Below, piece after piece: positions 2,201 to 36,703 of a stretch of 64,000 nucleotides of DNA. Both the position numbers and the translations under genes were made by a program. Source of the DNA: Ceratodon purpureus (taxonomy: Eukaryota; Streptophyta; Bryopsida; Pseudoditrichales; Ditrichaceae). The notes under the pieces are model-generated. The model saw only the letters and a list, made by a program, of their open reading frames with translations, did no database searches and was not told where the DNA came from. Position 1 is the stretch's first letter, and each line of letters starts with the position of its first letter. The DNA is taken from positions 13,048,892 to 13,112,891 of the forward strand of contig CM026424.1 in assembly GCA_014871385.1 (NCBI GenBank), in the 5' to 3' direction.

Positions 2201-3751
2201 CGTGAAAAAATTCCGCACCATTGACACAATTTGTATTCCCCATCCTATATTTTACTTCGGCCGCAATTTCATTCAGTATGGGGTAATTCCAAACTGCAGA
2301 TTATGTACACGAATTCGGAATTCGAATATGCACGCGATCACGATAGTTCACCTGTCCTCAATAAGCAGCACAGTATGTGAAATTGTAATGCGGGTTCTCT
2401 CACGTGCTCGGCATACTGGTGAAAGAGATTATGGACGAGGGTCGAATATTTCAGTTCGGGATAAATGGTCATTGGTTTATTGTGTTTGAGTAATTCCTGG
2501 TATGAAGGATGTTAGTGTTGTATTATTTAGTAATTTAATGCTTGATTATGTTTTATTTTGGTTTTCATACAAGAGATGATGATATGTTGTGATTGAGATG
2601 GATATGAATAAGTTGTGGTGTGTTTACTATTTGAGTTGGCATGACTAGTTATCTCAGGTGGGGCAAAAGGCACCTACGAACAAAAATTGGATTTCTATCG
2701 TGTGGAAATCCAAATTGAGTCTCGCATTAGATGTAAGAAATCCCCCCGATGAGCCGTTTGCAAAGCAACAAGCACTCGATAAATGTCATTGTCCATGGAA
2801 AAACCAACCCGGTTAAAAATTGAAGGGTTTGGACCCTATCACCAAAATTCTAATGTAGTCATGAAATCAAACTTCTGAAGGTTTTAGCCAAAAAATCCAA
2901 GAGCAGAAATCTTCGATTCAGTATATCCGTGACGGGTGCTAATTTTTGTTTTTAAGTATTGTTTTTAAAGTGAACTAGTGATTGTTCCATTATAATTAGA
3001 AAACACAACACTGCAAGACCAGGCCCAGTAAAGCGGATCTAGCAAAGAAGATTTATAGTAAGCGTAAACCTCGACTTCGAATTGCCCTCCATGATTTCAG
3101 ATGCATACCTCAGCTTTAGTGAATGTGTAAAGTCTTGTGGACTACTGTTGCACTTGTTATGAGTATTACGTTACAAGGCCTCGGTGCGAAATTTTATTTG
3201 GACAACGCCGGAACCACCGTTTGTTCGGAAAAGCACGCAGTATGTTGACTATTTCCTGCCATTTTACTTGAGATGTGGAATCATGAATCACCTTTAAAAT
3301 ACGTGCAATCCTTTGCAATGGATTTATTGAACATTTCCCTCCACAAACTTTAGTGTTAGATGTCTGTAAATCATCCGGGTATTCCTGATTCGAAAAGTGA
3401 GTCATTTAAGACTGCTAACTGAGGTCAAAATCGCAGAATTTACATACAACATAAGCTCTATAGGAAAAATATATGATTTGATAATTAACTTTTTGAAACT
3501 GCGAGTACCGATTAATAACAAGACCAGTATATCGATATCTAATATTTTCAAAATCTGAGGAAACATTTAATAATATTTCATACTCGGGTATTAAAAGTTT
3601 CTCCGAAACACGGAATCTGACCGTGGTTAAATGGATAACCTGTTCAAAACTAATTCCTTGCTACTATGGAAGTCTATTGGCAAAACGTACTGTGGATTTA
3701 ATAACCCCCTTCCGGTTTATCGAGTATCTAGGTAGACATCGATGAATAGAG
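2201..3751. other. Gene-free flank left of the accessory element
   Basis: Base composition becomes more balanced than in the first 2 kb, which may mean that the accessory element starts here rather than at 3.75 kb. There are short ORFs (2202-2489 +, 3166-3405 -) without recognisable motifs. An EcoRI-like double palindrome (GAATTCGGAATTC) lies near 2311. No copy of the GGCGCC palindrome typical of the element occurs here. I found no terminal inverted repeat. Confidence 0.4.
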
Positions 3752-4821
3752 CTAATCGGCTAATCTCTGGCGCTTCGGTACTGGAGCGGGGGAAGTTTCT
3801 CCATCAGACTTGGCATCTTCATCTTGGGCGGCGAATATGTTCCCAACGCTGTCGTTGTCTGCCGATCCAAAGTTCATGTTAGATGCCATGCAAATTAATT
3901 CATAAAGCAACTGATATTAACATGTTACGTGCATGAAAATAGCAAACATCGTTTCGCACCATTGTCACTGTCCTCTTCAGAAGAGGAACTGCCACTCGTG
4001 CTCACGGATTCAGACTCAGAGGGAACGAAGGAAGGAAATCCATAAGTTCGCAACCAGCATGTGGGAAATGGCTCCCTGCAAGCCTGGCGGGAGCAGTCTG
4101 GGTATACAGCAACGCGAACGGCCAAGCAAAAAATATGATAATAGTGACCACATGGTGCCTTGTGAGCTTCACTTGCTGGGAAGCCCTCGTCGCACATTTC
4201 GCATCTGCGCCCATCATCAACAACTGGAACTCTTGGTACGTGAACACGTCGTGAGAGTGTCAGATGGGTGTGGACGGCATAGTTGTCGAGAATGTCTCCC
4301 ACAAGCTCGTACTCTGCCCTTTGCTCATCGACGACTTCGCGGTAAAATGCTGTCTCCCGTTCTGCCTCTAGAAGCATAGCAATAAGTGAACTGAATGTCG
4401 AGAATCCGGAGTGGTTGCGGAGATTTGTCTCCGCCCTAGAGCGCTCACGCTTCAACTCAGACAACATCTCTCGAAGATCCAACAGATTGGCCCTTGTCTC
4501 CTTGCGAACGTCAGGATCCACCGTAGTGGCGTCGATCTTATTGGCCTGCGCCAATGCGTCCTTGACAGAATCAGCGCATAACATAAAACGATTGTGCGTG
4601 TCGTGGAGAATTCCCTCGAGCTCCGCTATCTCAGTGCATCGCTCATCCTCGTCGGGAAGCGACGGACCTTGGACAGCCAACTCCTCCCGTAGCATTCTCT
4701 CCCGAACCTCGGTGAGCGCAAGCCTGTTGCCAGCGTCATTGGCAAGTCTTAACTTGTGACCTCGAATCGCTGAAATCCTAGATCGGCGCGGGGATACCCT
4801 TATCGCTGGCTCACCAGACAT
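3752..4821 (-). CDS. RING-finger protein of the accessory element, two exons
   Basis: Exon 1 (4821-3960) starts at an ATG encoding MSGEPAIRV. It has an arginine-rich N-terminus, a long helical/coiled-coil middle (about residues 35-180) and a RING-like zinc module: CEMC, then CGHYYHIFC, then C-x4-C (about residues 208-255). After this comes a serine/acidic tail. Read without splicing, the ORF stops at 3925. An alternative joins a GT donor at 3959 to an AG acceptor at 3859 in frame and adds an acidic tail ending in the basic PKRQRLAD, a likely nuclear signal. RING proteins of this type usually act as E3 ubiquitin ligases. Substrate and partner are unknown. The gene lies 1.1 kb downstream of the transposase gene on the same strand. 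The RING is certain enough; the splice is inferred. Confidence 0.65.
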
Positions 4822-5329
4822 AACTAAACCCTTATCACAGGCCCGAACTCTCTGGAACTTCTACACGTGAGGCAGCTAACTCGACAACGAGAAATAAAGG
4901 AAACCAACCTAACAACTCGTATAGACACTCGAATAGAGACGAAAAAAGAAACGTAAAATCAAGGGAGGACAATCGCAAATGAGGGGTGAGAAATCCGCAG
5001 ACCAGAGTGGGTTATATTGTATCCGCAGTACCACGCCATCTCCAAACATTTGGGTCCCAGTTTTGAATTTGATTTCCGGCATAAAGAACACTGGCGACGC
5101 CGGCGCCATTTCAAACGTGATATCATCATAAGATCCGAAATAACTATGAGGCGCGTCTCGATAGTAACCCCAGCCTCCGATTTCGTTTACTCTGGTTATG
5201 AATTTGTTGGCCAGACGATGAAATTCACATTTCGTCAAGTAAATGAGTTTCATTCGTCCCCGGTAGCTGATTATCAGTCTTTGATAACAAACATGGTCGT
5301 CGGAAATAATGGAATTTCGGGAGTGGTTA

Positions 5330-5345
5330 ATGGCGCCGGCGCCAT
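5330..5345. repeat. Perfect palindrome copy
   Basis: This is an exact 16-mer of the consensus in the spacer downstream of the transposase gene. It sits in a segment related to the one around 5535. Confidence 0.9.
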
Positions 5346-5534
5346 CACAAACCCTGTCCAGTAAGCTGATAAGGAATTCCTTGTACAAATGTCCTAGTGA
5401 AGTTGTTCTATAGTTCTGGTTCTCTGAACATCTTGATCCGTTGAGAATTCGAACCGGTTGGAAATTCATCAACATAGATAGGAAATCGTAAACAGATACA
5501 TCGGATTGCAATATTGGAAATTCAGGAGGGGTTA

Positions 5535-5550
5535 ATGGCGCCGGCGCCAT
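5535..5550. repeat. Perfect palindrome copy
   Basis: This is an exact 16-mer, 205 bp from the copy at 5330 and with related flanks. Confidence 0.9.
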
Positions 5551-5948
5551 CTCAAACCATGTACATTAAGCTGATAACGCTTCCAAAAAATAATTTCAAA
5601 AAAATCAAAAAGAAAATAAAAAAAAAACACACAAAGAAACTATGATAAGGAGACCCTCGAACCTGACCGGCTGAGAATTCACTTACAACGATGTGAAATC
5701 ATATGAATACTCTCACCTCAAACCTTCAATTACCAAGAACCGCAAAAGTATTTTTCGTAAGCCTTGTGAGATTGGGACACGATATTGCATGCTTCATGCA
5801 CAAAGTAAAGAATATCAAAATAGTGAAATGACTAAATTGTATTAATAGTCGAGTCACTCCATTACATGAATTTAACGCTACCTCTGACTGACCACTGCAG
5901 AGAAATAGCTCTTGGCGCCGGCGCCGTCCTCGCTTGCAGACTTTCAGA

Positions 5949-8900
5949 TCAACCACATAAGCTCCTCCAAGTTTTGATAATGTCATCTACTTCCACCCGA
6001 CTTAAAGTAGCTTGGTGTGGTCGTTCGTCCGTCAATGGCAGGCCGAGGAAGACATTGTAAAGGTGGTACATATGCTTACAAGTCGCGAAGAAGTGACCAG
6101 CTTTGTTATCAGTGACACTACCAACAAAGAACTCGCAAGTGCAGGACGGAGTTTCACATATCGAAATTCTGTAAGTGACTGGCTTATTGTAAGTCCTTGA
6201 TATGGTGTGGAATGCAAACTGGTATGTGCTGTTCTCCTCATTTTGCTGCAGGAGTTGAATCTGAGCTCGCAACATTAGCCCCTCCTTCCTACGGTTCTCC
6301 CCAGCATCTGTAATCGATCTACGATTTACACGCTTTCCACATCGCCGAAGAGGTCTCTTCGTTGGGTCATGATCTGACTGAGAAAGGTATCTAGGATTCT
6401 CTAACTGGCTACCGGCGTTAGGGTTCCCTAAAACATCCGGAGTTGATGATGTGCTTACCAATATGAAACCTGCGGCACCTAATGCTGACGCCTCTGCATC
6501 AGTTAACTTCGTACCAGATTCAACTGGCCAGATATTCGGTAGTCTAGGTGGCTTTCCACCTTTTAGAAGCTGGACGTGGTCACAACTGACGCAACCTGTT
6601 ACCGAGGATGCGCAGAACCAAAAGTTCTGGAAACTCTTTTTGTATCGTACCTCACTGCACCCGTAAAAACATGGTGCTGCATATGAAATATCAATATCCG
6701 GCTTTATGCTTCGACCACATGTATCCCATCGTCCATTCCGAAGCACCACTGCAGCGCACCTTGGATTCTCATGTGGTAAACACCTTCGAATCGCCCAAAG
6801 TTTGTGATCTGTCTCTTTTTCGACTACCATTAAACCGTACTGAATAGCATACGAAAATCCATTAATGAAGGTAGGACTTGTGATGCCCATGGAAGGACCG
6901 GGGGTTCCCATAACATCTCCGAAATGAGACCCTCTCATCTGATTCCCGAAGATATTGTCACCCCGAGGATAAACCGAGCCATGCCACCCCGGAGATTGCA
7001 ATGCTGCAAGTCCAGGGTTATATGAGTTCGTTGGGACGCCATCTGCAACCATTCCCTCACTTCCTCTCCAGCAAGGTGGCCTCATAGAATTTGCTCCTGG
7101 ATTTGAAGTTGTCGCATAGTCTGCACCACGGTCTTGAGTCCCAGTGTTTTCCCAGCGCCGGGGTGTCCCTGGGTTGGCCATTGAACCGATTGTACGTCTC
7201 AACTCACACCTAGGCGATGGCGACACGATAGTCTCGGGCCGAAATGGAACTCCATTGTACAGCTGATTTGATGATGGTTCTAGAGAGCTTGTCCTGACAA
7301 GTCCGTTTAGATAACCTCCTTGGGTCTGACTCGGAAGGTCGTGGTGCGGTGTTCGAAAGGGCTCCTGGTTCCCCAAGGTATTCAATCTAGGAGTTGGCAT
7401 TGGAGGGCGTCTTCCATTGGTGCCGTTAAATATCCTTGGATCAGACATGCTCTCCGATCGGGCTCCCCCCCTCGGGTGCTGTTCCGAGGAATATAACATG
7501 CTGGATGGCGCCGGCGCCATCTGGTAGGGGCCGGGTTGGTGATTTCCGTGATGAATGGTTTGTGGACGATGGTCTGCGCTTGCCCCCGGCGCTGTTCCCA
7601 ATGCCGAAGTTGAGTATTTACTGAGATTCATATCGTGAGGATTCTGCAGATGAGTTGGCGCCGGCGCAGTAGCTCCCCCAGGTGGACCAGATTTACGATG
7701 GTGGGAGATGTCGGGATAGGGCTGGGTGGATGCTGCCTGCGCCATTGCCGGAGGCGACTGTGTGAACATGCTTGGATAGGAAATGTTCGGATTGGGATAA
7801 CGGGATGGCGCCGGCGCCATTCGATGAGTAGTATCGGTATGCTTGAACGATGGTGCACAATCCCTGGAAGCCCGTAATGGGGATACGTGAGGGAGTTGTC
7901 CAGGATCTGCTTCACCAAAGTTTACCTCATCTGGGACGGTCGAAGGAAAAGTCGGATCGGATAGCGACGGAGGCGGTCTTCTCTGTGAAGTATACCTACG
8001 TCCCCGACTTGGTCCTGGGACCACTGTGCTTGTATTTGGACTTGGCTGAAATCTGAGTGGCTTCCTAATTGTGCGGCTGTCCTTGTCAGGTCTGTGAGAT
8101 CGGGCAACTCTTCGCTTTCCAGCTTTCGTACTGAACCTAACGCTCTGTGTCCTGTCCATTTCGCCCTCCAATCCCAACCCTCTCGAGTGAAACGGAGTTC
8201 CCTCAACGGCTGTCTTCACAGCTGCTGCTACTCGCTCCGGTCTGTGAGATCTTGCTAGTGTTCTAAGAATTAAATCTGCCTTGGATGGGCCAGAGCCACG
8301 TACCTCACCCTTTGATGCTGCTGAACAGAACTGCTGTTGTAGCAGCGATCGGGTCATGTCCTCTGCACATACGGTGTATAGGTCCATTTTTACTTTCAGT
8401 CCGCTGGCAGAGGTTGCCCACATTGAACTATGTACCGGTTCGCACAAATTCGTGTTTGGGACAAGTGCCTCACTTTCAAGGTCTAGGTCAAGCTCGTTCA
8501 GATGGTGATATGCGAAGAGCGTGCGTCTTGCCATCCACCATGTCATCCACCCCTGCATGTGCTTTACGTTGTCTTTGTGAACCGCACCTGAGGTCGCCCA
8601 CCAATTCTGGAGGTCCAAAGCTATCTCTAGAAATTCCTGATTAGTCGGAGCTAGAGCCCATCGCTTGCACTTCTCAGCATGATGGGTCCTGTACTGATCT
8701 ATAACCCACTTGTTAGTGTGATCTCGGATACTTTGAACAAAATGGAAGTAGCATGTCCGTAAGATTGGATCGTTTGGATTGGAGAGAACCCCCTCCTCGT
8801 GCAATTCCGAACCGAAGCCCTCTGCTGATCCATACACTGATTTCACAGCGTTATAGTTTGCTGGTGCTGCATCTGCCATAAACCCTTTGAACTTCGGTTT

Positions 8901-10787
8901 TGCTTGGCCACTCCTAATAACGGTTTCGTTTAGAAGCTCCCAAAACTTTATCTGGTTTTCAGTATTTTCCAGCTTCATTTCGCAAACCGCAATTGTCAAT
9001 AATCTACCTAAGTTATGATCATACACGTGAGCGGCCATTGTAGTCCAGTGATGAACTCTCTTGATATGATCGAACATTATGAAGCTGTCTTTCAAGTCTC
9101 CGGTCGTCAAGCGCTTTACTAAAGCAACACCGCTGCCAATGCCCACCGTGGACATTTTAAACACATACTTGACTCCGGTGTGTGATTGGCCAGGAAAATG
9201 ACTATCTTGAATATAACTGTACCGTGAGTATTTCTTCAACGCGAATATGCACCGCTCCTGATCGGACCTGAACTTTGTTACCACGTACTTTACCCTACCT
9301 TTGTCGTGATATGGTGGTGCATTCTCCAAAAGATCCATAAGCTGCTCCTCGGATAGTATCTCCTGATCCTGAACAGAAGTTGACTGCATAATCAAATCTA
9401 GAAAGTTCCGGTGTGCACATCGGAACCCCACCCAACCAGGAGCATTCATGAGCCAAGGCTGGTCATCAAGGAACCGGTGGATCGTGTCAGTCATGTTGGC
9501 ATACGCAACCCGACTTCTCCCCGGAGGAGATGGATGGTTGTGCGTACCCGCGTGGACAACAGCACGTGTGTACCTATTCGAATCGTGGTTTACAACCCAG
9601 AGAATACTAGGGCACTGGCTAAGACAAGTCGGCGTCCATCTACAGAATGAGCACCTCCAATCGCCATCCTGTGGAGCTTCCCCAGCCTTTGGCCTCGTTT
9701 GACAGCGCCCTTCCCAATACAGTGTGTTGGCCTCGCCATGGATGTCGACGTGGCTACAATCCGGATTTCTACAGAAGAATGCTCCGCTGCAAAAGGATTT
9801 TCGAACACGAACTCCGGCATCATCCAAGCGCCTCGACTTGTAACTGTTGGATTTCACCCACGGATGTCCATCGAAAGAAATATCGGTCGAGATAGTGTCA
9901 TCCCCAACAATCGGCGGAATCTCAAATATATGGTTCCCATCGTACACCTTCGGCATATACTGGCATTTTGTCCTAGGAAATTGTTCAAATGGCATGGTAG
10001 CAAATTCACCTGTACAACCGCGAGCGTTCAGGTCCAGCAAGATCTCCAAGATTGAGGATGCTCCTGGAGAATGTGCTGCCTCTTGCTCCGCCATAGCTGC
10101 ATTTGGCGTGGACGATGGGGATGGGGACCGTCTTGCAGACTCGTTGAGTTGTTGGGACGGCTGTACCTGTTCCTGCCGCAAAGCATCGTGATGTTGTGAT
10201 TCAGGCCCTTCATCTCTAGGAGATGCATGTTCGAGTCCAAGTACTGGAGACTGGTATTCGGTTTCGGCGGAATCTAAGATAGGATCACATTGTCTGGATT
10301 GGTCTGCCTCGTCACCGATACTCTCAATTGGATAATCATCTATGCAGAGAGATCTCTTGGTCTGAGCACTAAACTTTCGATTCAAGGACGCTCCATGGAA
10401 CTCAAGGCTACCACCCGAAAACTCGCTGTCATAGTTAGATGTCTCCTCGGAGGTAGTTTGTAGCTGGGCCATTGGAGAGGGTGTTTTAAGGGGCCGACTT
10501 GGATCTGCTATGTATGGCTGTTTCTGATTATCTCCGAAGATTATGAATGAACCCCCATCTCGAACAGGTAAATGAAACACAGGCTCACCATCCTTTGCCT
10601 CTGGCCAGTAGTTCCCACTAAGAGCACCACCTATGTCTATGCGCGTGATGTGAATGCTACCCACTGCCAGTTTAAACGCTATGGCCAACTCCAACTCTGG
10701 GATGTCTATCTCAGCATCTGCACATGAATACTTCAGATGCTGAATACCGCCAGATAGGCGAATGATCACCTCGCTTGGTACTGCCAT
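5949..10787 (-). CDS. MULE-like DDE transposase with SWIM zinc finger (1612 aa, single exon)
   Basis: The ORF starts at ATG (MAVPSEVIIRL) and is intact. Residues 1-90 form a compact domain I cannot name. A cysteine/histidine cluster (about 330-425) ends in H-x-G-x-H-N-H-P, as in the WRKY/GCM1-like fingers that precede MULE catalytic cores. The core has an Asp in FIMFDHIKRVHHW (about 573), an Asp in FMADAAPANYN (about 639), the C-x2-H signature CYFHF (about 680) and a Glu in TNLCEPVHSSMW (about 783). This matches the D-D-E spacing of MULE-type transposases. A Pro/Ser/Gly-rich linker (about 880-1230) contains three MAPAP-like runs coded by the GGCGCC palindrome. A second Cys cluster (about 1330-1400) and a SWIM finger (CTC at about 1549, CKH at about 1570) close the protein. 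The likely role is to cut and rejoin the element's ends. The linker length and second Cys cluster are unusual for MULEs; relation to KDZ-type transposases is an alternative. Confidence 0.8.
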   Translation of the reverse strand: MAVPSEVIIRLSGGIQHLKYSCADAEIDIPELELAIAFKLAVGSIHITRIDIGGALSGNYWPEAKDGEPVFHLPVRDGGSFIIFGDNQKQPYIADPSRPLKTPSPMAQLQTTSEETSNYDSEFSGGSLEFHGASLNRKFSAQTKRSLCIDDYPIESIGDEADQSRQCDPILDSAETEYQSPVLGLEHASPRDEGPESQHHDALRQEQVQPSQQLNESARRSPSPSSTPNAAMAEQEAAHSPGASSILEILLDLNARGCTGEFATMPFEQFPRTKCQYMPKVYDGNHIFEIPPIVGDDTISTDISFDGHPWVKSNSYKSRRLDDAGVRVRKSFCSGAFFCRNPDCSHVDIHGEANTLYWEGRCQTRPKAGEAPQDGDWRCSFCRWTPTCLSQCPSILWVVNHDSNRYTRAVVHAGTHNHPSPPGRSRVAYANMTDTIHRFLDDQPWLMNAPGWVGFRCAHRNFLDLIMQSTSVQDQEILSEEQLMDLLENAPPYHDKGRVKYVVTKFRSDQERCIFALKKYSRYSYIQDSHFPGQSHTGVKYVFKMSTVGIGSGVALVKRLTTGDLKDSFIMFDHIKRVHHWTTMAAHVYDHNLGRLLTIAVCEMKLENTENQIKFWELLNETVIRSGQAKPKFKGFMADAAPANYNAVKSVYGSAEGFGSELHEEGVLSNPNDPILRTCYFHFVQSIRDHTNKWVIDQYRTHHAEKCKRWALAPTNQEFLEIALDLQNWWATSGAVHKDNVKHMQGWMTWWMARRTLFAYHHLNELDLDLESEALVPNTNLCEPVHSSMWATSASGLKVKMDLYTVCAEDMTRSLLQQQFCSAASKGEVRGSGPSKADLILRTLARSHRPERVAAAVKTAVEGTPFHSRGLGLEGEMDRTQSVRFSTKAGKRRVARSHRPDKDSRTIRKPLRFQPSPNTSTVVPGPSRGRRYTSQRRPPPSLSDPTFPSTVPDEVNFGEADPGQLPHVSPLRASRDCAPSFKHTDTTHRMAPAPSRYPNPNISYPSMFTQSPPAMAQAASTQPYPDISHHRKSGPPGGATAPAPTHLQNPHDMNLSKYSTSALGTAPGASADHRPQTIHHGNHQPGPYQMAPAPSSMLYSSEQHPRGGARSESMSDPRIFNGTNGRRPPMPTPRLNTLGNQEPFRTPHHDLPSQTQGGYLNGLVRTSSLEPSSNQLYNGVPFRPETIVSPSPRCELRRTIGSMANPGTPRRWENTGTQDRGADYATTSNPGANSMRPPCWRGSEGMVADGVPTNSYNPGLAALQSPGWHGSVYPRGDNIFGNQMRGSHFGDVMGTPGPSMGITSPTFINGFSYAIQYGLMVVEKETDHKLWAIRRCLPHENPRCAAVVLRNGRWDTCGRSIKPDIDISYAAPCFYGCSEVRYKKSFQNFWFCASSVTGCVSCDHVQLLKGGKPPRLPNIWPVESGTKLTDAEASALGAAGFILVSTSSTPDVLGNPNAGSQLENPRYLSQSDHDPTKRPLRRCGKRVNRRSITDAGENRRKEGLMLRAQIQLLQQNEENSTYQFAFHTISRTYNKPVTYRISICETPSCTCEFFVGSVTDNKAGHFFATCKHMYHLYNVFLGLPLTDERPHQATLSRVEVDDIIKTWRSLCG
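7505..7520. repeat. Perfect palindrome copy inside the transposase linker
   Basis: This is an exact 16-mer within coding sequence, read in frame as QMAPAPSS at about residues 1089-1096 of the transposase. Confidence 0.9.
7805..7820. repeat. Perfect palindrome copy inside the transposase linker
   Basis: This is an exact 16-mer within coding sequence, read in frame as RMAPAPSR at about residues 989-996 of the transposase. A near copy at 7655-7668 gives TAPAPTH. Confidence 0.9.
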
Positions 10788-11450
10788 TTCTATTAGGCAC
10801 GGTCTGTATCAACTCGCTATACAACTACAGTCAGAAAAAATTTCACAGCTGCCAACGTTAAGCTATTGTGGTTGGATAAGAAGACTTCACTCTGCAACCG
10901 AAGTCAACAGTATACTGTTCGCCGTTAGTTATATACTTACTTCCAGATTATGGTTGAACTATTTTTAACGAATCGATTTGTTTGCTTTGAATTAGCATTA
11001 CTTACATACTCCGTGAAGAACGGTCCTGTGTTGATTTAATTTAGACCACCGCCGCCTATGCACAGCTTTGTAGATTATTTGAATTCCAAATCGGCCTATG
11101 ATCATGCGGAATAGCCGCCGAAGTTTTTTCCAAATGAATTATGAAACCGTTGGGGCAATTCATCGGGGAGAGTGGAAGGCGTAACGGAACTGTAAGCGTG
11201 AAGTCTGTTTTGAATAACAACCAATGCCGTTCGATCCACAAGGATAAATAGGCCAGGTCAGTTGACCATGTCCCCACATGCGAACCCTAGCTTGCCCCAT
11301 CATCTTGTCGACATCAGTTTGCGAGTACTTGCTGTCGTTGATCCAGATCTCCAAGTTTTGTGGTTGTCTTAGGTCCAGTGCGTTGTCCGCGTGCTCTCTC
11401 TTGCTGCAATGTTTTCAATTGATAGCATCCTGAACGGTTCCGCGGCAACT
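10788..11450. promoter_or_regulatory. Divergent promoter region between transposase and ParB-methyltransferase genes
   Basis: These 0.66 kb separate two genes transcribed away from each other, so the region should hold both promoters and 5' leaders. No GGCGCC palindrome is present here, although many lie on both sides. No clear TATA box could be assigned. The short ORFs here are not convincing. Confidence 0.45.
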
Positions 11451-14400
11451 ATGGCGCCTCGAAGGGGATCGTCGATGAAGGGAGGCAAAGCCAAGCGAGG
11501 CGCGGAGTCGCTGGGTGGCGTTCGGAAGAAAAATCGCAAGAACCCCCCGGACGACAGTGTTACAGAAGTAAGTTCAATCCCTTACCCTGTTCTCGGATCC
11601 CATGTTTTGATGTGACATACCACATCATGGTATGCTTTGGCGCTGGCGCCATACAGGTTGCAATTGTCGCCATGATCAAAGTCCTCAGTCAGCTCTCAAG
11701 TATGGGGTGTCGTCGGACCATGATTGTAATCTATAGTCATCTCAATAGGTCTCGAATCACATCAATGGGTGTGTGGGTGAGCGTGATATAAACTGTGTAG
11801 CGGTGGTGGGTTTTTGGTAGGTCGTTCTTTGCTGAGATTCTTGCAACTACTACGATTGACCGAATGTGTCCATTGTATTTTCCGGATGTGTCTTCTTAGC
11901 GGGATTGTTGTGTGTCACAAGCAAATTACAGATTTGTTGGGTCGACTTGAATAAGGGTCATCGCTGCGTCCAGCCATTACTGTAGGTGCCTTGAATTTAG
12001 GTGTAAATTTTATTCCTGATCTTGTGACTTGCTTGCTTTCGTCTTATGTTTGTGAGGTTATGGTGCGTGAGGTTATGGTGCATGAGGTTATGTTGCGTGA
12101 GGATACCGCATATGGTGCCGGCGCGTGTAGATATGTTTCGAATGAGAGGTGGTCTTTACACTGAGCTTTCCAATCTGTATGCATAATCTACAATGTAATA
12201 TTGCTTGTGATTTGTAGTTAAAATGTTAGACCGATTCGGCCAATCATCTGTTATTAATTTCTGAGTCGTTTCTGCTCTGACTATGATTCTTATTAGTTCT
12301 CACATCCTGCGACATATTCGTATTAAGTCGGGTCTTTTCTGAAAATCTCTGCAGAGTACTATGAAATAGGGTATGTTCTCACAGCAGACTGGATTTGATT
12401 GTTCTTGACGCCTATCGCCAGCAGATTTCGAAATTCATTAAATCTTGTGAAATGAGGGTTATCTCACAGTCCAGCCAATGAGTTAGTTTGTTTAGATATG
12501 CACCGACTTCCTTTATAACTTCTTTGGCGACCTTATGGATTTTTTTGCGAGAGGTTAGAGCATATGGTGCCGGCGCCATTAGAAATGATTTTAAGGGCGG
12601 ATGCGAAAATTGGAATGTGGTATACCTTGTTCGGCCCATGCTTCGTAATCGAGACGTTTCTGCTTCGTCTATTTTCCTTGCTCTTGGGTCGTTGCTCTTG
12701 GGTCGTATGCGGTTTTTGTCCCTTATGAACTGGATTGGGGCATCTTCTTGTGGCTGTTGCGCAGCAGAAGTAATATTAGAGATTTCTATCAACGGATTGA
12801 AATACAGTCATGGTAGACTCGAGCCAGTGCTTTTGACGTAACGCAGTTTATATTATACTGCCAAATGATGTGACCGGAATGTTTTCGTTTTGAATCATCA
12901 TGGATTAAGTCCTGTTTTTGATTCGGATTAGTCTTCCTACCAACATACATCTCTCTGAAGAGTCGTTAAGAGTTTGTTTGGTCATGATACGGATATAAGT
13001 GAATGGAGAATGGAGAAGCGGCATGAGTGCTCGCAATCTGAAAATCAGAGCATCTGGGACCGGCGCCAGTTGCTTACTCTTCCACGACAGATGGCAAAGA
13101 CTCGGAAATCTGTCAACCGTAAAGTAACTTCGCCATTTCGGTATTGTTATGTTGGTCATATGGAGCAGGCGCCATCTGTTCCAGAGAATTTACAGTTCCA
13201 TTAGTATCCTGCTAGGTTTGGGGTGTGGTCGTTTGTATTTCATATCTTACGTGTTTGTTAATATTAATCTCATCGGTCCAATTATTTGAGTGGCGTGAAA
13301 TAGGGCATATGGATCTGGCGCCATTTGAATTGTGCATGAAGTTATTATTCGGTGACGGTTTGGTTTTGTATCGATGTTTGCAATGGTGGCGCCAAGTGCA
13401 GCCCGAGATTTTGGTTGCAAAGGGTTCTTGTGGAACTACCGGATATTAGTCCGAGCGCAGGATTGTGTTTGGTTATACTAATTCATTTATTCAGCTTGCT
13501 TTGGTTAGCTTAATGCGTCGGGTCTGTGTCGGTAAATGTGTTCAAGGAACTAGTTTTATGACTAATTAATCTTCGATGTAATTATACCGCTATTGAGAGT
13601 TCAGCCAATCCAGTTTTCATTGAATTCCAGCAATTTTCTGATGTCATTGATTTGTAATGCTTGCCTCATTGGTATTTGAACGAACTTGCAGAACACGCAC
13701 CCTGGATTCACTGCCGAATCCGGCGAAGGCGAAAGCGAACCTGATCACGAGGATGATGCTAATGAGGTCGCTATCGACAGAACTTTGGACCCCAATCCGA
13801 CAGTGACCTCGTTTGAGCAATTTCAAGAGAGTTTGTTTAACCAGGTTAACATCAACAAGCACTTGGCGAGTCACAAGCTTAAACCCTTGAGCCTGGAAAT
13901 TCCCCTTTGTCGACTTATGCCTACTACGTGGGTTCGGCAAGCCTTACCAGCGGATGTTCAGACTGTATACGATGGATTTGACATTGGAAATTGGGGGACT
14001 AATTTCTGGGTTACATGTTGTGGGGGACCCGGATTATATCCTCGTGAAGGTTTCGAAGATATCCAGCGATGGTCACATATGTCAGAGGAATTCGACGTTG
14101 AGCTTAGAACAAAGTGTTTGAGCGATCCCGAGCACGCGGATGTCTATGAAGCAATGATTGGCCGATATGTTCACGTATGGGATGGCAACCATCGGGCAAT
14201 AGCTTGGATGCGACATATCCAGGATCACAACAGTGATCCAATCAAAGTGAATTGTTTCGTTTTGAAAGAGGAAGAGTCTGACAGAGGCTGGATTTCCAAC
14301 TTCATGCGGGATATCAATGAGTAAGCCCCTCAAATCTTGAGTCAAGTGCGTGAGAAGGTTAGGAGACTGTAATTTCTGTTTTGCATCCCTTTCCGTTTAT

Positions 14401-17400
14401 TGCTCATCATTGTTTTGTATTGGTCGGTTTTGTATGGGTAAATATCTTTCAGTCCAACTGTTTAGGATGGTCTGTTTCCTTCTTGTCCAGGACCGGGATA
14501 GCTAGGAGTTGAATTGGCTTCCGAACCATAGCTTCTCCATTATGCTAAATTCTCGGTGTTGCGTGTCACCTCAGTGGAACTGCGAACACGACTGTGAAAA
14601 AACAACTTGCGCATACTCTTTTTGAGGTCATGCAGATAGCGAAACGAGACCCTAAGGAATACGAGCCTTACTTTACTGAGGCAGAGATCAATCGAATCAA
14701 AGACGTTTGCAAAGGACGGTGGTATAACATGACTTGTGATGCAGTCACCGAAGTCTATTTCAAGGTGCCCCGTTCTAACCTTTGTATATCATTCCGTTTT
14801 AAATAACCTCAACCCGAAGTTCGACCAATTCTCTCAATTGAATGGTTTGTGACTGTATGCCTAGCTTTAGAAATTGGTATGATTTATATGTTTGATTGTA
14901 GGGGACATTGAATGCGGCGCATGTATCGAAGTCGATGACCATATTTCACTTAGAGTTTGGAATATCTGAGTTTCGGAATTATTAACCATTCTACTGGGAC
15001 GTGTTTGAACTGTGCAAGCACTGACGCTGGAATTTGCTATTGGACAGCGTGAAATCCTAGTCGCCGAACGTGAAGCTGTCAAAGCATTAAAGGACAAGCA
15101 TCCGCTTCCCACTGCTATGATGATTGAGGAAGCGAAACATTCTGCAGCTCAGTCGATCAGAAAAGAGAAGACCGAACACATGAAGAAAATATTTCGGTTG
15201 TGCAATCCGAAGTACCACCCCCACCTGATTGACGAGCTCGATATTCACTCTCGAACGAATTCTCGAAAGATTGGGGCTATGACAGTGGATAATCTGGGCA
15301 TTCTTGTTGGGGTTCAAGGGGTGGATATAACGAGAGTGCTGAAGTTATGGAATAGTACAAGCGAAGAGAAGCTTAAGTATCACTTCCCCGACCTCGACTT
15401 TACAAGGGCTGCGTTTCAGAAATGGCTGAATCGCCGGGCTTGGTGGGAGCAGGTTATCCACATTCTCAACCCAATAGCATTTGCAAATACTGGGTTTCTT
15501 GTCTTTTTCCCCTCGAGTGGCCATAGCTTGTGGTCTTTATTTCAGAAAATTATATTTGATTTATTGTAGACCTGCGTTACAATTGCCTTTACGCTGCTTA
15601 GTTCTCCACTACAACTTTCACTGACATAGTAGTTTATTTCGAAGCAGATGGGTACGAGGGCGTTGGAGTTGACCCTTGAGTTGGCTGGAAAATCGAAAGG
15701 TGAGAAGGGAATCGGAATTTTGCGAGCTGAAGTGCTGAAGCCATTGTTCGATGAGTACTTTGACCGCGTGATGGTGTTTGGGTTCGAGAAGTACTTCCCG
15801 GAAATCTTTTCTGGGGATTGTGGACCGGTGAGGCATAAAGCCTGGAAGGATCAGACGAATTATCACCAAGGGGAGATGGCGGTTCGTCGTTTCATAATGA
15901 GATTTGTCAGGTGGGTCTTTGAAGCTCACAGCCTCATTCCTAAAGAAGATGGCGACATAAGCAAGTTTCCAATTTTCGCAGACTGGCTCTTGACAAAGCC
16001 CAGCGTCTTCGCCGCTATACACGAAAGTCCCCCACATCTCAAGTACCTCGGATGGTACATTGAGAGTATTGGTGAGGAGCGGTACTTCCTTGATTCAAAG
16101 GACAGGGAGATTTATGAAATAGTAGAAAGGGAGATAGAAGCCGTGAGATCTGCCCCGCTCTGCGAGAAGGCTAAGGCGCTGGATGCGACATTTGATGCAA
16201 CCCTCGAGAGGATGACGAATATGATCGAAACGGCTGATTTGGAAGGAGATCGAAATGGAGGAGCTGAAACGGTAGATGGCACTGCCTGTCGACTATCTTC
16301 TACACTTCTTTCTGCCTTATCCGGTTCGTTGGAAACTGTTTACGTTCCGAGAGACGAGTCTGAAATTGCTACTAACAGTGCGCTGGACACTCATTACGGA
16401 CCAATATTGTTTACTGAGCTGCAGGTCCTTATTGGTGCCAAAGCTGCTACAAAAGCTGGATTGGAGACTCCTCTCAAGGAAACGAATCAAGAGCAGTCGA
16501 ATGCTATCATTTCGGATATTCTCCAACAGGTCGAGTCGATCAATGGAAATAGTCATGCCGATGAGGATTGCACCCTTACCGGTGCCACCGAAGGCAAGCA
16601 GCGTGCATCCTCTCCCCATGGGATGGAGTTGCGACCAAGAAATGTCAAGTCAGCTCAGGTCTCTGAAGGAGAAGCCATTCCATCGAACCCTCTTTCCCTT
16701 GCCACGGTCCCGAAGAAGTCGTCTTCGAGGTCTTTGAAGAAACCTGCCAAACCCGGACCCGACGTATCTCAAATGAAGTTCTCTGCTTTGCCCATTGAAG
16801 GCGTTGCAGGGACTGTGAAACTAACAATGAATATCGCATTTGAGAGCCTCTTAGAAGGGATCGACCGTTCGGTGTTCGCAACCTTTCTTGCCGCAATCAA
16901 GCAGGTTATTTCGTAATCTTTTTTCTCTCTCTTAATATGTCACTTTCAGACTCAACTGTTCTTCAGTTCGTATGAAGTATTCCTCGCCTTATGTCTTGGC
17001 GACTGGCGCCAGCGCCGTCTGACGTTTTATTTCGGATGACTCTTTGTGCTTTTGTTGATTTATCTTGGATTGTGAGATTAGATAATTTCCTGATCAGTAC
17101 AGTATTGCGAACTTTACTGTTTATTGATTAATAAACCTAAACCCAGCAATGGTTACTTAGAGTACGGGTTATGATATTACCTGGGGACTTATTCAATCAT
17201 AGTGCTGTTCATTCTACTAGTTGCGGTTCCGTTGTATGAATTTAGCTCGTTATTTTATCCAGGTCCATCTAACTGTCCTGTCATCTGATTGATGCCGGCG
17301 CAAGATGCTGCTCGAGCTGTTACCATCTTGTCCTCGTAACTTATGGTCTTAGCCGGGCCTTGGCAGTCGGTTTATTAGCTAGGAGCTAATTGAGCATGTC

Positions 17401-18732
17401 TGAATGTCCTTGTCATTTTTTATTTCCCATGGGCTATCTTTTTGCTGATTTCGGACTGGTATTGGAAGAGATGGACCTTTTCACGCCGGCGCCAGATGGA
17501 CTCCTATTGTAGATCGAACCTTGCTGGTTGTTCATACTTGACATTGATCGGAACTATGGACTTGTTGCGAGACAACTATGTTTGCAGGGTCCAAGCTCCA
17601 TATGTTCATTCATTTTTTTAAGTTCTGCTCGAGTCTACGCTGTTGGCGCCGGCGCGATGTGTCCTACCTATGCTCATCTTATTATGCCTGGCTCATGTGA
17701 CAGATTAATGGTGGGAGGCTTCGGCAGCATGATAAGGTCGCAAGCAGAAATTGCGTGGACCTCATCATCTGTGATACACCAGACAACAGCCCCATTCCCG
17801 GATATGACAACGGGGCACTCCCGCATGAATCGAAGACTCCCGCTTGGAATATGGTGAAGAAGACAACATTTCCAGCTATATTTCACATCGCGGATGCCGT
17901 CTTAGCGGACTCGGGTGTTATACTTCTATTTGTTCCTGCTGAGGAGCAGCCTTTGCTTACGACGGGGACTTGGAATAATGAATGGGAGTGTTTAAGGACG
18001 TTCTACGTCGTGAACCACAGACCGTTTTTCCCTACATGGGTAATGTCTTCCTACTTTATGCCCGCAAGTTTTCTGATGTTATCAATCCGTACCTAGGTTA
18101 CATGTTCTGAAGTATACTAATAGCCCGATCAATCCTACTCTACAGAAGCGACTTTTCAAAGCAAAAGTATATCGGCGAAAGTGTATGAGCCAGGTGAATT
18201 TTCGTTTTCAAGAGATCGCTAGCAAGGTTATGGACTGGAGTGCCGAGTCATCGGATGTGCTCGAGAATGTTGTTACTGACGACAACTTGCTCAGATGTAA
18301 GGAGACGAAGTCGTATCGCGGTTCCAAACAGAAGGCTCCGGCATTCATGGAAACCATGATAGAGATCTGCACCGGAAAGGGGAGCGCCGTCCTGGACCTG
18401 ACCGCGGCTGTGGGTAAGCTGACTGCATTTCTTAAAGTAGTACTTTAGTAACATTACGGTTTGGACGAGACCTAATCTACCAATCGTTCTGCACAGGTTC
18501 ATCGGTGCAGGCATGTGAGCTTAGTGGCCGTCACATTCTTGCACTTGAGGAGGACACAGCCGCTTTTAACATGTTTCTATCGGACAACGCGATCGAGCCT
18601 AGCGCTGACATTGGTACGGAGGATAATCGGATTCTTTCGCTGCAACAGCACTTACACGACCTCGACGGGACGTACTCAACCGCAAATGTCCAGTCTGCGT
18701 TAAGTGGCAATTCGCTTGGCATGGCTAGCTAA
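11451..18732 (+). CDS. ParB-like domain fused to a DNA amino-methyltransferase-like domain, multi-exon gene
   Basis: Exons with matching phase are 11451-11567, 13692-14320, 14575-14764, (about 14890-15018 unresolved), about 15019-15452, 15648-16904, 17704-18039, 18146-18413 and 18497-18732. The product is about 1,180 residues. The start at 11451 (MAPRRGSSMKGG) is followed by a basic stretch; an ATG at 11409 is an alternative. About residues 100-230 resemble ParB/sulfiredoxin domains: LEIPLCRLMP, then VWDGNHRAIAWM (ParB box DGxHR). A helical, lysine-rich middle follows. The last three exons resemble N4-cytosine/N6-adenine methyltransferases: VDLIICDTPDN in the place of the [D/N/S]PP[Y/F/W] catalytic motif, and VLDLTAAVGGSSVQA then GRHILALEED for the SAM-binding end. 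Bacterial and phage ParB-methylase fusions are known; I know of no described plant case. The catalytic motif is altered, so activity is uncertain. Confidence 0.7.
12052..12106 (+). repeat. 15-bp minisatellite in intron 1
   Basis: The unit GTGAGGTTATGGTGC is repeated about three and a half times with small changes (starts at 12052, 12067, 12082, 12097). It lies in the long first intron of the ParB-methyltransferase gene, just before a palindrome copy at 12112. Confidence 0.8.
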
Positions 18733-19529: not shown

Positions 19530-21921
19530 TCTGGATAGCAAGCTGTGAAAGAGTCAGTCGTGATCTCCAGCTTCAGGCTGTCTTCATCTCCAGAAGGTTT
19601 TATTGTATGATAAACCCCGGTGTAAGTGTTCACTCACATTAGATCAGTGAGTGTTTACTCATTGAGGGCAAGATGCGCTGCATTGCATCCCCGCACGAGT
19701 CCCTAGGTTACCAATGGCCACAATCTTGGAGGCGCCAATTTGGAACACAATTGTAATCGTTCATGGGGACTTGTGTTTTCGCCATAATGAATAAAGATTC
19801 GTACATCTGAATTTAAGATTTTATAGTTTTCATTGTTTCCCTCCTCCCTGAATGTAAGGGTTGAATTACTGGCATTTTGGTGTGCAAATATACGCGTCCT
19901 ATCCTTTCCTTGACGGGCCAAGGCTTCCAATGTTGATCTCAGGATTGTTTAGGATGATGATTCTAGTGCGCTTAATCTTATTGTTGTCATCCGGGTTAGA
20001 ACTGTTGGAGACCTGGCAAATATTAAAAATTTCACCAATGGTTGATTTATCTGTATTATAGTCTTGGAATTTAGAATCCCTTGTTCATATATCGATATTT
20101 TTTAGGTGCATGTTGCTGGTTGTCAGTTTCGACATGGCCCTTACTTGTTTGTGGTGTCTGACGTTGCAGAATTTCTACCTGCTTCTGTTTGTCAAGTGGC
20201 GCTGGCGCCATTATGCTTTGTTTCTTAATGTCATTAAGTTCTTTGTGAGTTTGATATTACGGTCATTATGATTCACTTGTGAAGGACGATTTTAGCTAGA
20301 TACTTGTTCGAGCTCTTCGTTCAATCATGTACTTCAGGGTATTGAACCCTTCATTTGGTGGGCTGATTTGATTCCAGCACAAACATTAGTCGTTTGGCGC
20401 CCGCGCCAGGTGAGTATTGATATCCAATCGAAGGTTCTGTTCTTTGAACTCGGAGGTACCGTTATTACTCAAGGCGTGTTTCAGATATCGCCCAATTTCG
20501 GCACATGCTTCTTGTAATCTGTAATCAAATTGTGGTGTTATTGAGTTATGATCGTTGGTGTGGATCCGATACACATTATTGGTCATATTCTGGTCGATTT
20601 GTTTATTAATCGCCGAAGCTATATGGTCAGAGCTTATTCGTCGATCCGAGCAACGAAAGAGCTACCCAATGTAGCAGTGGCCCCTTATTCGTAAGCTTCC
20701 GTCGCTTCTCCGACTCTGGTGTAGCTCAATGGTTCTGCATGGGCTCTATTATACGGGATCCAGTATGAAATACTGGATGATAGTATTGAATACGGGGTAC
20801 AGTAGTTTATACTGGATGATGTATTCGTAGTCAATTATTAGTTCGTCCACTTCTGTCGTATGGTATTGGTACATGCTCGGGGTGCGGATGTCTCGTTTAT
20901 CTCCTGATGAAAGCTGGTTCTCGTCGCCAACCACTGGTGGTCCCGGTTTCTTATTTGATTTTTTTCTGTCAGTTGTCAGGCTCGCTCACACCCTAAACGA
21001 CCCACTCCGAAAAGCTGTCCTCACATGTAATCAGGTTGTGTGATGGATGTTTGGTCCTTCAGAAGTGTCCAGTTTACAGCATGTTTATCTTAAGAAGTTT
21101 GGCAATTTTTCAGATAAATCTTCCAGATTTTCCATTTTGACCAATCTGGAAAAGCATTTGCCAGGAGAGGAATCCTGCCTTGTCTTCTTCATCTGTGATA
21201 TTTAATACTTTCTACTTCCAATAAACTCCACCCAATGCATAACGACATGTAACATGGTCCAAAGCCTGAGTCTGTCTGTATGTTGTTTTGTCGTCTTTGG
21301 CATACATGAGAGAGCGAAAGTTTGTTTGAACATAAGCCTTCAAAAGTTCAAGTTATGTCTCATTTAAAGCTTCAATTCCTCCTCCCCTGAGATTGCTTTA
21401 ATTATGCAACAATAGAATTGCAAGAAAGATTTGGATTCTGGAATATGACTGCTGAGCGCAGGTTCTAAAGTCAATGCGCTGCTCCCAAAACATATATTCA
21501 AAACTTGTGAAGGATCAGCATTCAGGTCCGGTGTCATAACTTACAACTTGTAACTCCAATTCAATATGGTATAATGTTGTTTCCTTATCTGCTTGTCATA
21601 AAATTTGATGTACTACCAAACAGCAGTGTAGATCCCCACTGTGATTCGAATGACCGAAGCAAATTTGTAATAGGTTAGTACTGACTTGGATTTACGTATG
21701 ATTCCTATGTTTGTTTGTCCACAAGCATCTGGATGTTTCCTGCCACTCAGCCCACTATCATGTTATTATCTTCAAATTTGAATGTGGCCAGGCTGAATTA
21801 TTGGATCCAAGTCTACGGACAAGAGTAAAACCTCCAAGCTCAATGAAGAGTATTCAATAACTTAGACCAGAAATGTGCTAAAGAGTTGGCAAGATTATAC
21901 TGTATGAACCTGTAAAACTTA
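19530..21921. other. Right flank of the accessory element, gene-free
   Basis: Palindrome variants at 20197 and 20394 extend the element at least to 20.4 kb. A small inverted repeat (CCAGTAT/ATACTGG) lies near 20760 with echoes to 20820. A minus ORF of 66 codons (20386-20586) starts near a palindrome but has no domain. After about 20.95 kb the sequence returns to ordinary AT-rich intergenic DNA. I could not identify a terminal inverted repeat or target-site duplication. Confidence 0.45.
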
Positions 21922-34976: not shown

Positions 34977-36703
34977 GATGCCTTAAACGAGATTTAATAT
35001 CAAATAAGAAATATTACTATCTAAATATAAAGAAACAAGTGAATATAAATAAATGAGATATCTCTCTTCTGTGCACTTCCTTTAATATATATACTATTTT
35101 ATACCTCTTTTACTTTCACTGCAAAAGCTTCAATAAAATCAACATCATCTTGTATATTTTACTTTTATCCAAAATAAATAAATCTTTTACTTAACCAAAA
35201 ATTTACCAGAATTTTGTGAAGAGAAAAATTGTTCACTATTACCAGGCACTCAAAACAGTGTACTGCTCTTGAATACCATGAACCTCCAACTGTAAATGAC
35301 ACTAATCAACTAAAAACACCGAAATTAATACATAATCAATGAACCCCAAATTAGACCACCACCCTCTTTCAGAAACCTGCCACAGGATCCAGTCTGCATG
35401 GCCCCCTTACCACCCCTTCCCCAGCTGGCCAGGCATCCCAAGCAACCCAACAGAACCCCTCCCTCATCCACCAAAACTCATCAAAAAACTCAACAAAACA
35501 TCATTCATCTCACCTAATATCATCCAAAACCCCATCATTCATCCAAAATATAACCGTTACCCTGGCGACGCGGAGCCCAAACGGCTCTCTGGGACGCCGC
35601 CAGGAGCCCCCATTATTGCACCCGAGGCAGCCGATCCAACGGCGCATGGGCCCCGGGGGCCTCATCGGACGGCCCAGCGTGGCCGCGGAGCGATGAGTCG
35701 GGATGCGTTACCGTGCGCGACTGGCAGCGCAACAGTGGCGTCGGGTGCCGTTGCGAAGCGCATCCCATCCCATCCCAGCTGATGATGGCGATGGCGGACG
35801 GATGCACCAGTGAAGTGAACCCACAGTAATGACTCAACTGAAACTAGCACTTCATGTCGAGCACTACAAGCTCCCGCCTTTAGCTTTTGCAGCTCGGAGC
35901 TCACAGTTTGCTGCAGGTGATCGATCATTACGTTTGTAGTACTACTGCATACACTGTCTAGGATTGGGTAGAGTAGCTTGTGTCCTTCGGGTTTCGTGCC
36001 GTTGGGTTAACTTACTTAGCTCAGTTTGTGTGGCAGTGTCGGAGAGGAGTCGAGGTCACGTTGGTGCCTGCAGCTGAGGTTACTGACACTGGTGTCGATC
36101 AGTCTAGAAAAGTTTCGAGCTTGGGTTGGAGTTTTTTGATTGTCTGATTGGGTGGGGGTTTTTTTGGTGGAGACCGTTGGGTGGGGGAATTGAGCTGTAG
36201 TTTGTGGTTGAGGAGATGTTTTTGGGACCGTTGCTTGGAGTTTGGTGATGGAGAGGTGAGAGGGGTCGAGGATAAGGGCATTGTTTGGGAGCTGGGTTGG
36301 GCTGTGGTGAAAGTGAGGTTTTTGGTGCATGTGCATTGTATGGTGGTGAGTGGGGGTGACATTGTGTGTTTTCGGTGTCGTGGAGAGTGCAGTCCTGTGA
36401 GAGGGATATGTGGTACTGGTTCGTGAGTTGGTTGCTTTGAGGAGCACATCGTCTCGTCGTGGGTCTTATTAGATATGAGTGGGTTGAGAGGGTGGCATTG
36501 TCGTGAGCAACGTCACATCAGAAGGAGCTGTCTTGTCATGAGGAGAGATTAGGCAAGTTAGGAGCTTTGTAAAGCAGTTTGATTAGGTATTGTTAGGCAC
36601 CACTTCGCATACACAATATACCAGGGAGCTTTATGGTTTTAGCTGTCATTTGTAGACGTAAATGCTTATGAGGGAGCTTTAGGATTTGATGTAGGTGGTC
36701 GGG
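34977..36703. promoter_or_regulatory. Intergenic DNA and promoter/leader of the LRR receptor kinase
   Basis: AT-rich to about 35.3 kb, then a C-rich stretch and a GC-rich island (about 35560-35780) that breaks the AT-rich background and probably marks the promoter. From 36.1 to 36.4 kb the plus strand is G/T-rich (GGGTGGGGG runs). ORFs at 35339-35782 (+) and 36016-36447 (-) have biased composition only and no domain. The 5' leader may contain introns. Confidence 0.4.

Follow-up and report, generated by a model that had tools for sequence, protein, structure and literature searches.

The window analysed here is a 64,000-nucleotide stretch of the genome of the moss Ceratodon purpureus (GenBank assembly GCA_014871385.1, contig CM026424.1, forward strand, positions 13,048,892 to 13,112,891; G000:C4:13048892-13112891 in our numbering), whose left part belongs to a giant DNA transposon with terminal inverted repeats (TIRs). 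On the forward strand of this transposon, at window positions 11451-18732, lies a spliced gene that we refer to as the ParB-methylase gene, after a possible ParB-like N-terminal region and a methylase-like C-terminal part. Based on reading frames and splice signals, we modelled it as eight exons encoding 1145 amino acids (aa), with 3,438 bp of exon and 3,844 bp of intron (Table 1). An initial annotation of this DNA, made from the letters alone, had called a spliced gene with the same ends; the splicing is borne out by kept splice sites, exon/intron contrast and low ratios of non-synonymous to synonymous substitution (dN/dS). Its exon count did not stand, as there are eight exons, the methylase part comprises exons 6-8, and exon 7 starts at 18146.

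We compared splice sites with six other genomic copies for exons 2-5 and nine for exons 6-8. All sites tested in exons 2-5 were kept in 6/6 copies and those in exons 6-8 in 9/9, apart from the exon-8 acceptor (8/9). Exons 2-4 gave gap-free alignments with six copies (0.89-0.99 identity), whereas introns 2-4 of the same copies showed 0.67-0.97 identity, with indels in most; exons 6-8 were gap-free in all nine copies (0.77-1.00 identity). Two details of the exon model were tried and discarded: a micro-exon between exons 3 and 4, whose acceptor reads AA in two of six copies, and an exon-7 acceptor at 18111, which is AG in only 3/9 copies and was replaced by the one at 18144 (9/9).

Relative to the window copy, dN/dS was 0.06-0.20 for exon 2 in seven of eight comparisons (the eighth being saturated), 0.00-0.06 for exon 3 in five of six (the sixth, at 0.52, rests on three changes), 0.00-0.13 for exon 4 in all six, 0.03-0.07 for exon 6 in all seven, 0.03-0.18 for exon 7 in six of seven (the seventh saturated) and 0.07-0.19 for exon 8 in five of six (the sixth without synonymous change). 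Intron 4 read as a frame, our control, gave 0.45-0.79. These values indicate purifying selection on exons 2-4 and 6-8 alongside decay of the introns. Exon 5 was compared only with the copy at C6:108.8 Mb, in which it contains one in-frame stop; 13 changes are non-synonymous and 12 synonymous, a ratio of about 0.3. This copy has lost exon 1 in a deletion of about 2 kb that also takes in the start of the transposase-like open reading frame (ORF), and is therefore considered partly broken.

Between the two parts of the gene, a stop that might have closed the transcript early is an in-frame TAA at 16914, just past the exon-5 donor, which is absent from all six other copies examined. A gene ending there was rejected on the basis of this absence together with relatives in which an exon-5-like part and a methylase-like part occur within one uninterrupted ORF. 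In single comparisons, exon 5 matched the relative L048 (blastp E 1.8e-8) and a profile of five single-ORF relatives (E 5e-6); against four single ORFs taken individually it gave only E 0.17-0.55.

We searched for relatives throughout the 362-Mb genome (151 contigs). Relatives of exon 2 are abundant: 150 were scored among 1,569 candidates, and searches with two distant relatives gave more again. Among the first (best) 65 of the 150 scored rows, on which our copy counts are based, exons 6 and 7 follow exon 2 within 12 kb and in the same orientation in 63; none shows the wrong order or strand, and random placement would be expected to produce the linkage in 0.2. The same linkage recurs in 8/9 rows of one distant class and in 23/28 rows of another (class 3), the latter chosen by hand among rows of about 43% identity with others of that range excluded. 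In L073, the gene segments follow, by eye, in the same order within 4.7 kb. Because order and strand are held both in the window family and in the distant classes, we conclude that the two halves are inherited as a single unit across great divergence. The joining of both parts in one gene, as first annotated, is accordingly upheld by selection on both halves, by this conserved order and by the ORFs of relatives that contain both, and the ParB-methylase gene is real and not a chance product.

Exon 2 is free of stops in 54 of the best 65 rows. All 11 stop-bearing rows lie on contig C6 (110.5 Mb), which we take to be a sex chromosome, and the rows elsewhere are stop-free.

The element carrying the gene measures 45,097 bp (G000:C4:13024817-13069913, window -24074 to 21022), and the location inside a mobile element proposed in the initial annotation was confirmed by its TIRs, 9-bp target-site duplication (TSD) and shared ends. 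A copy on C6 matches the window from beyond the left edge to 21022, and three others end at the same right terminus. By searching the genome with the right terminus we located the left termini, and found five further elements of 42.3-49.3 kb, four having a 9-bp TSD and one an 8-bp TSD whose ninth position is ambiguous, so that 5/6 elements overall have 9 bp. Mutator-like elements (MULEs), which include the VANDAL elements, typically have TIRs and duplicate about 9-11 bp of target site. The head-to-head partner of the ParB-methylase gene in 56 of the 65 best copies is a 1619-aa ORF in which D-D-E, C-x2-H and CTC..CKH patterns can be made out by eye; searched against Pfam, it matched no family, including the MULE transposase and SWIM domains. 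We therefore presume a MULE-like assignment, mainly from the TSD length and the patterns seen by eye. One transposase-like relative (G000:C9:15898524-15899966) lies in an open frame of 4,610 aa, far exceeding the others. Five ORFs from the left 24 kb of the element, scanned against Pfam, gave no convincing match.

Table 1. Coordinates of the ParB-methylase gene, its carrier element and the associated palindromes, in window positions.
Feature	Position	Strand	Remarks
Exon 1	11451-11567	+	start codon, basic N-terminus; weakest exon, modelled from the window sequence alone
Exon 2, ParB-like region	13692-14320	+	DGNHR box at 14181-14195
Exon 3	14575-14764	+	copy alignment, dN/dS
Exon 4	15048-15452	+	acceptor and donor kept in 6/6 copies
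Exon 5, middle domain and linker	15648-16904	+	copy comparison
Exon 6, methylase-like part	17704-18039	+	motif IV DLIICDTPDN at 17758-17787
Exon 7, methylase-like part	18146-18413	+	motif I DLTAAVG starts at 18395; acceptor 18144-18145 kept in 9/9 copies
Exon 8 and stop codon	18497-18732	+	acceptor kept in 8/9 copies
In-window part of TIR transposon	1-21022		right end common to five copies including the window copy
Right 35-bp TIR	20988-21022	-	32/35 identical to left TIR
Right 9-bp TSD copy, ACATGTAAT	21023-21031		perfect 9-bp duplication
1619-aa ORF, presumed MULE-like transposase	5949-10808	-	zinc-finger-like, DDE-like and SWIM-like patterns by eye
311-aa ORF, possible RING-like	3925-4860	-	Pfam RING E 0.68 only; inside element
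Four GGCGCCGGCGCC-type palindromes	5096-5925		at 5096, 5332, 5537, 5914
Three palindromes inside 1619-aa ORF	7507-7818		at 7507, 7657, 7807
Five palindromes, intron 1	11639-13173		at 11639, 12114, 12566, 13056, 13162
Three palindromes, intron 5	17005-17656		at 17005, 17482, 17645
Two palindromes near right end	20198-20407		at 20198, 20396

At the C-terminal end, exons 6-8 of the corrected model match PF01555 (N6_N4_Mtase) with E 1.3e-4 and 22.4 bits, below the curated cut-off of 26.7. With our first exon model, in which 11 residues of intron preceded exon 7, the values for exons 6-8 were 1e-4 and 8e-5, and its full-length protein, with one extra residue after exon 5 as well, gave E 0.0016. Exons 6-8 of that first model, intron residues included, also matched DNA methyltransferases of PHROG at 3.3e-5 and 6e-4, the PHROG 67 match covering residues 16-237 of the joined exons. 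Among the relatives, PF01555 matched L068 (0.0014), L066 (0.066, PF01555 positions 25-188) and L067 (0.14), and a scan of L048, L069, L073 and L074 for this family gave no match. Motif IV comes before motif I, which is the beta order. The amino-methyltransferase-like C-terminus of the initial annotation is thus supported at the level of the family, although the profile score stays below its cut-off and motif IV is not canonical.

The canonical motif IV of amino-methyltransferases reads [DNS]PP[YFW]. In all nine members read (window, L048, L066-L070, L073 and L074) it is D-[TVL]-P-[DE], and DPP[YFW] occurs in none of them. Motif I is DLTAAVG in the window and DLTASTG, DLSASTG, DLNASTG or DLTTSTG in five other aligned members, so that its G-S-G has become S-T-G or A-V-G in all six. 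Because motif IV lacks DPP[YFW] in every member read, canonical N4/N6 methylation is unlikely and the methylase-like part has probably lost its activity or changed its chemistry; it could act as an S-adenosylmethionine-sensing or structural domain, or catalyse an altered reaction. Two bacterial plasmid fusions, L083 and L084 (Candidatus Chlorohelix), annotated as DNA methyltransferases, resemble the moss gene in having a ParB-type domain first and then an amino-methylase with motif order IV to I (L083 matches PF01555 with E 2e-35), but differ from it by their canonical DPPY and FAGSGST and the lack of introns. By eye, the cyanobacterial ParB-domain proteins L080 and L081 seem to end in a degenerate methylase-like region without DPPY; the catalytic motif may therefore have been lost in bacteria too once the methylase was joined to ParB.

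These observations bear on the possibility that the protein is catalytically active, as an N4-cytosine or N6-adenine methylase that its ParB-like domain guides to the element, with the palindromes described below being or containing its methylation sites. The PF01555 and PHROG matches and the strong conservation of exons 6-8 would fit such an enzyme, and the same has been proposed for the Sola1-1_Ec32 protein of Ectocarpus (PMC12477816). Nevertheless, we regard it as unlikely in view of a motif IV that departs in 9/9 members from the DPPY of the bacterial fusions, the replaced G-S-G of motif I, and the four relatives in which PF01555 finds nothing.

The element is studded with a dyad-symmetric motif. 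Allowing up to two mismatches, GGCGCCGGCGCC occurs 32 times in the 45-kb element and not once in the remaining 43 kb of the window; the 17 sites in the window compare with 0.2 expected from shuffles. Among the 32 sites, none falls in the ParB-methylase exons, eight lie in its introns and three in the 1619-aa ORF. In intron 1, identity of the motif sites is 0.83-0.94 against 0.52-0.57 for the remainder (four copies), and in intron 5 it is 0.89-0.92 against 0.72-0.73 (three distinct copies), in seven distinct comparisons that include several closely related copies and with some bias in favour of the sites, which were selected by matching in the window. This pattern indicates that the window-family motif is kept inside decaying introns, and two to six sites per 3.6 kb were present in all 13 window-family loci counted, out of 30. 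The three palindromes at 7507-7818 are translated within the transposase-like ORF, as MAPAP-like peptides; the motif may therefore be selected as DNA even in coding sequence. A very AT-rich stretch inside the element (window -3500 to 2000, 18-29% GC in 1- to 2-kb steps) is shared with the C6 copy and is free of palindromes in L051.

Genome-wide, the 16-mer ATGGCGCCGGCGCCAT (up to one mismatch) has 775 sites, against none for its reversed control. Fifty of the 775, those listed, all exact and on C1-C4, were compared with the relatives on the same contigs: a relative lies at most 10 kb away for 20 of them and at most 50 kb away for 40. Independent random positions would give 0.6 and 2.6, expectations that are optimistic because the sites are clustered. 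For six of the listed sites the nearest member used is over 50 kb away, also when the rows of a search with a distant relative are included.

Other families carry other motifs. CTCGGATCCGAG occurs 15 times in the 6 kb of L048 and three times in L073, and genome-wide 1,882 times against 8 for its control. In L048 (G000:C2:1385000-1390999) it forms clusters at 97-632 and 3689-4906, on both sides of a 568-aa single-exon methylase-like ORF, and in the upstream cluster the sites are spaced fairly regularly, about 86 bp apart. The dyad GCTGCGTGC-N5-GCACGCAGC is found three times, plus two variants, in L091, and the imperfect dyad GTTCGGCACAGAAC five times in L049. Judged by these sequences, the dyad motifs differ between element families, with GGCGCCGGCGCC and CTCGGATCCGAG as the clearer cases and the other two as weaker ones.

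In the N-terminal part, the initial annotation had seen a ParB/Srx-type domain with a DGNHR box. The box is indeed present in exon 2, and its G-N-H-R, together with the A-W that follows, is invariant in 23/23 aligned members, while the profile searches returned no significant ParB match. Bacterial ParB binds dyad-symmetric parS sites, and in the moss, too, dyad-symmetric sites lie in the DNA that encodes the protein; unlike parS, they are more numerous and dispersed, and homology to ParB is unproven. We propose, giving the idea an even chance, that the ParB-methylase gene serves a giant MULE-like transposon as an accessory gene and that its product is a self-recognition protein, predicted to bind its own element at parS-like sites. 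The 1145-aa protein would bind the dyad motif through its ParB-like region, much as bacterial ParB binds palindromic parS, and would then mark or coat the element from which it derives. Such marking could counter host silencing or license transposition, for which VANC acting on the VANDAL motif offers a parallel, and the methylase-like part would no longer carry out canonical N4/N6 methylation. Because the element combines a second gene under selection with a dyad motif kept mostly outside coding DNA, the simplest link between the two would be that the product of this gene reads the motif.

A number of results weigh against this proposal, some bearing on the ParB identity and others on the motifs. 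The ParB profile (PF02195) matched nothing in the genome and none of the 23 members, and exon 2 of the window matched no Pfam family. A PHROG 'ParB-like partition protein' was matched in 11/23 members, all at E 0.08 or worse, and in some members was outscored by phrog_34256, of unknown function (7/23, best 0.0021); Pfam TehB matched 6/23 (best 0.0089), and a single NCBIfam match at 0.0043 is better than the ParB-like scores. Aligned by hhalign to a set of 12 bacterial ParB-like proteins, the exon gave a short match in register (P 0.0024, against 0.42 for the reversed control) and a longer one out of register (score 22.5; best of 100 column shuffles 18.6), neither of which was counted as support. 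Two AlphaFold2 models were of low confidence, with mean predicted local distance difference test scores of 34.8 and 32.5. Since the label draws on the DGNHR box and non-significant profile matches, with an ambiguous profile-profile result and low-confidence models, we treat the ParB identity of this region as plausible but unproven, a lead and not a result.

Regarding the motifs, three of the 17 window palindromes lie inside the 1619-aa ORF. The dyads of L091 and L049 each rest on one sequence, of 6.5 kb with partly tandem-duplicated copies and of 7 kb, respectively; L092, searched for repeated words, contained no repeated palindrome, and the searches made around the L049 member did not find a methylase part near it. 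Sites of ATGGCGCCGGCGCCAT also occur about 3 kb from some distant class-3 members, so that the motif is not strictly private to its family and no one-to-one mapping holds. Furthermore, the ParB-methylase protein is no more than a candidate binder of the palindromes.

This last point leads to the possibility that the palindromes are binding sites of the transposase and that the ParB-methylase protein does something else. A precedent for motifs bound by a transposase exists in the TnpA motifs of En/Spm, and both the partnership of the 1619-aa ORF in 56/65 copies and the three palindromes inside that ORF can be read this way. We consider it unlikely, given that the palindromes extend over the whole 45 kb, eight of them in ParB-methylase introns, instead of gathering at the ends, and that the distant L048 and L073 families again have a dyad beside a ParB-methylase-type gene.

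The weakness of the profile evidence also admits an N-terminal region that is not ParB/Srx at all, with a convergent DGNHR in a DNA-binding protein of other descent that is fused to a methylase-like domain. Lack of any significant ParB match, weak matches to unrelated families and lack of a usable structure agree with this origin; we find it improbable all the same, with G-N-H-R and A-W unchanged in all 23 members, the PHROG ParB-like match falling on the DGNHR stretch in 5/10 members scanned singly, and the same two-domain architecture found on bacterial plasmids and reported from algae (PMC12477816). Against self-recognition one could lastly set the capture of a host gene, or cargo that does nothing for the element, an explanation we disfavour as very improbable. 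Gene capture by MULEs is a familiar precedent, yet near copies are under strong purifying selection and the fixed order is conserved in families that share only 21-26% identity in exon 2.

A more far-reaching version of self-recognition, which we put forward tentatively and with more doubt than belief, is a plant transposon self-identity system in which each family would have its own ParB-methylase-like protein and a matching dyad, the two co-diverging. It predicts nucleation and spreading of the protein, escape from silencing restricted to the family, and a methylase fold that is non-catalytic or altered.

The initial annotation had regarded an intron-bearing plant ParB-methylase inside a mobile element as new. 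This was too strong, because the giant Sola1 transposon Sola1-1_Ec32 of Ectocarpus has been described as encoding an accessory protein with a ParB-like and an N4C/N6A methyltransferase domain, and similar proteins on green and red algal transposons are cited there to Iyer et al. 2011 and Petroll et al. 2025 (PMC12477816). These algal proteins were proposed to bind and modify their own element, and the text available to us names no target site (PMC12477816). As far as that description goes, the moss gene shares with Sola1-1_Ec32 an accessory protein of about 1100 aa with two domains, the ParB-like one putative in the moss, encoded on the strand opposite the transposase in a giant DNA transposon, and differs in its plant host, its MULE-like 45-kb element with a 9-bp TSD and the element-wide palindromes. 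Motif IV of the moss proteins is non-canonical, and moss and algal proteins were compared by description only, not by sequence.

A second comparison is offered by the VANC anti-silencing proteins of Arabidopsis VANDAL elements, for which binding to a motif and loss of methylation have been shown experimentally (PMC5735166). The moss case resembles these systems in combining an accessory transposon gene with a short motif that is amassed in the non-coding DNA of the element and varies between families, and differs in being known from a sequence pattern alone. Enrichment of the motif in the element's own non-coding DNA, a VANC-type trait, was found in the moss, though three sites lie in an ORF.

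Across the literature covered (titles and abstract openings, with subscription papers mostly outside), we found no such gene in a plant and no target palindromes named, and the Ectocarpus study was the one paper identified in which the combination is named. New here are the plant host, the giant MULE-like carrier, the conserved non-canonical motif IV and the dyad DNA motifs that appear to differ between families. The moss genome offers many selected copies together with candidate target palindromes that differ between families, whereby the proposal of binding to the own element becomes testable, and in a plant. If confirmed, the moss element would join VANC as a second example of a plant transposon recognising its own DNA in a sequence-specific way, here with parts of prokaryotic type.

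Searches of phages with moss-type proteins returned only chance-level matches (E 0.4 or worse) and no relative, and neither scans of viral contigs with these proteins nor a scan of prokaryote genomes with exon 2 revealed one. L073 and L074 (AVDCRST_MAG81, binned as a cyanobacterium) contain seemingly intron-bearing relatives of the ParB-methylase gene, L073 with CTCGGATCCGAG, and these contigs look like eukaryote contamination, perhaps from a moss. The rest of the window, beyond the element, contains ordinary plant genes, recognised by eye: a leucine-rich-repeat receptor kinase-like gene at 36695-39163, a histone deacetylase-like gene at 47187-48301 and a glutamyl-tRNA reductase-like gene at 58804-60024.

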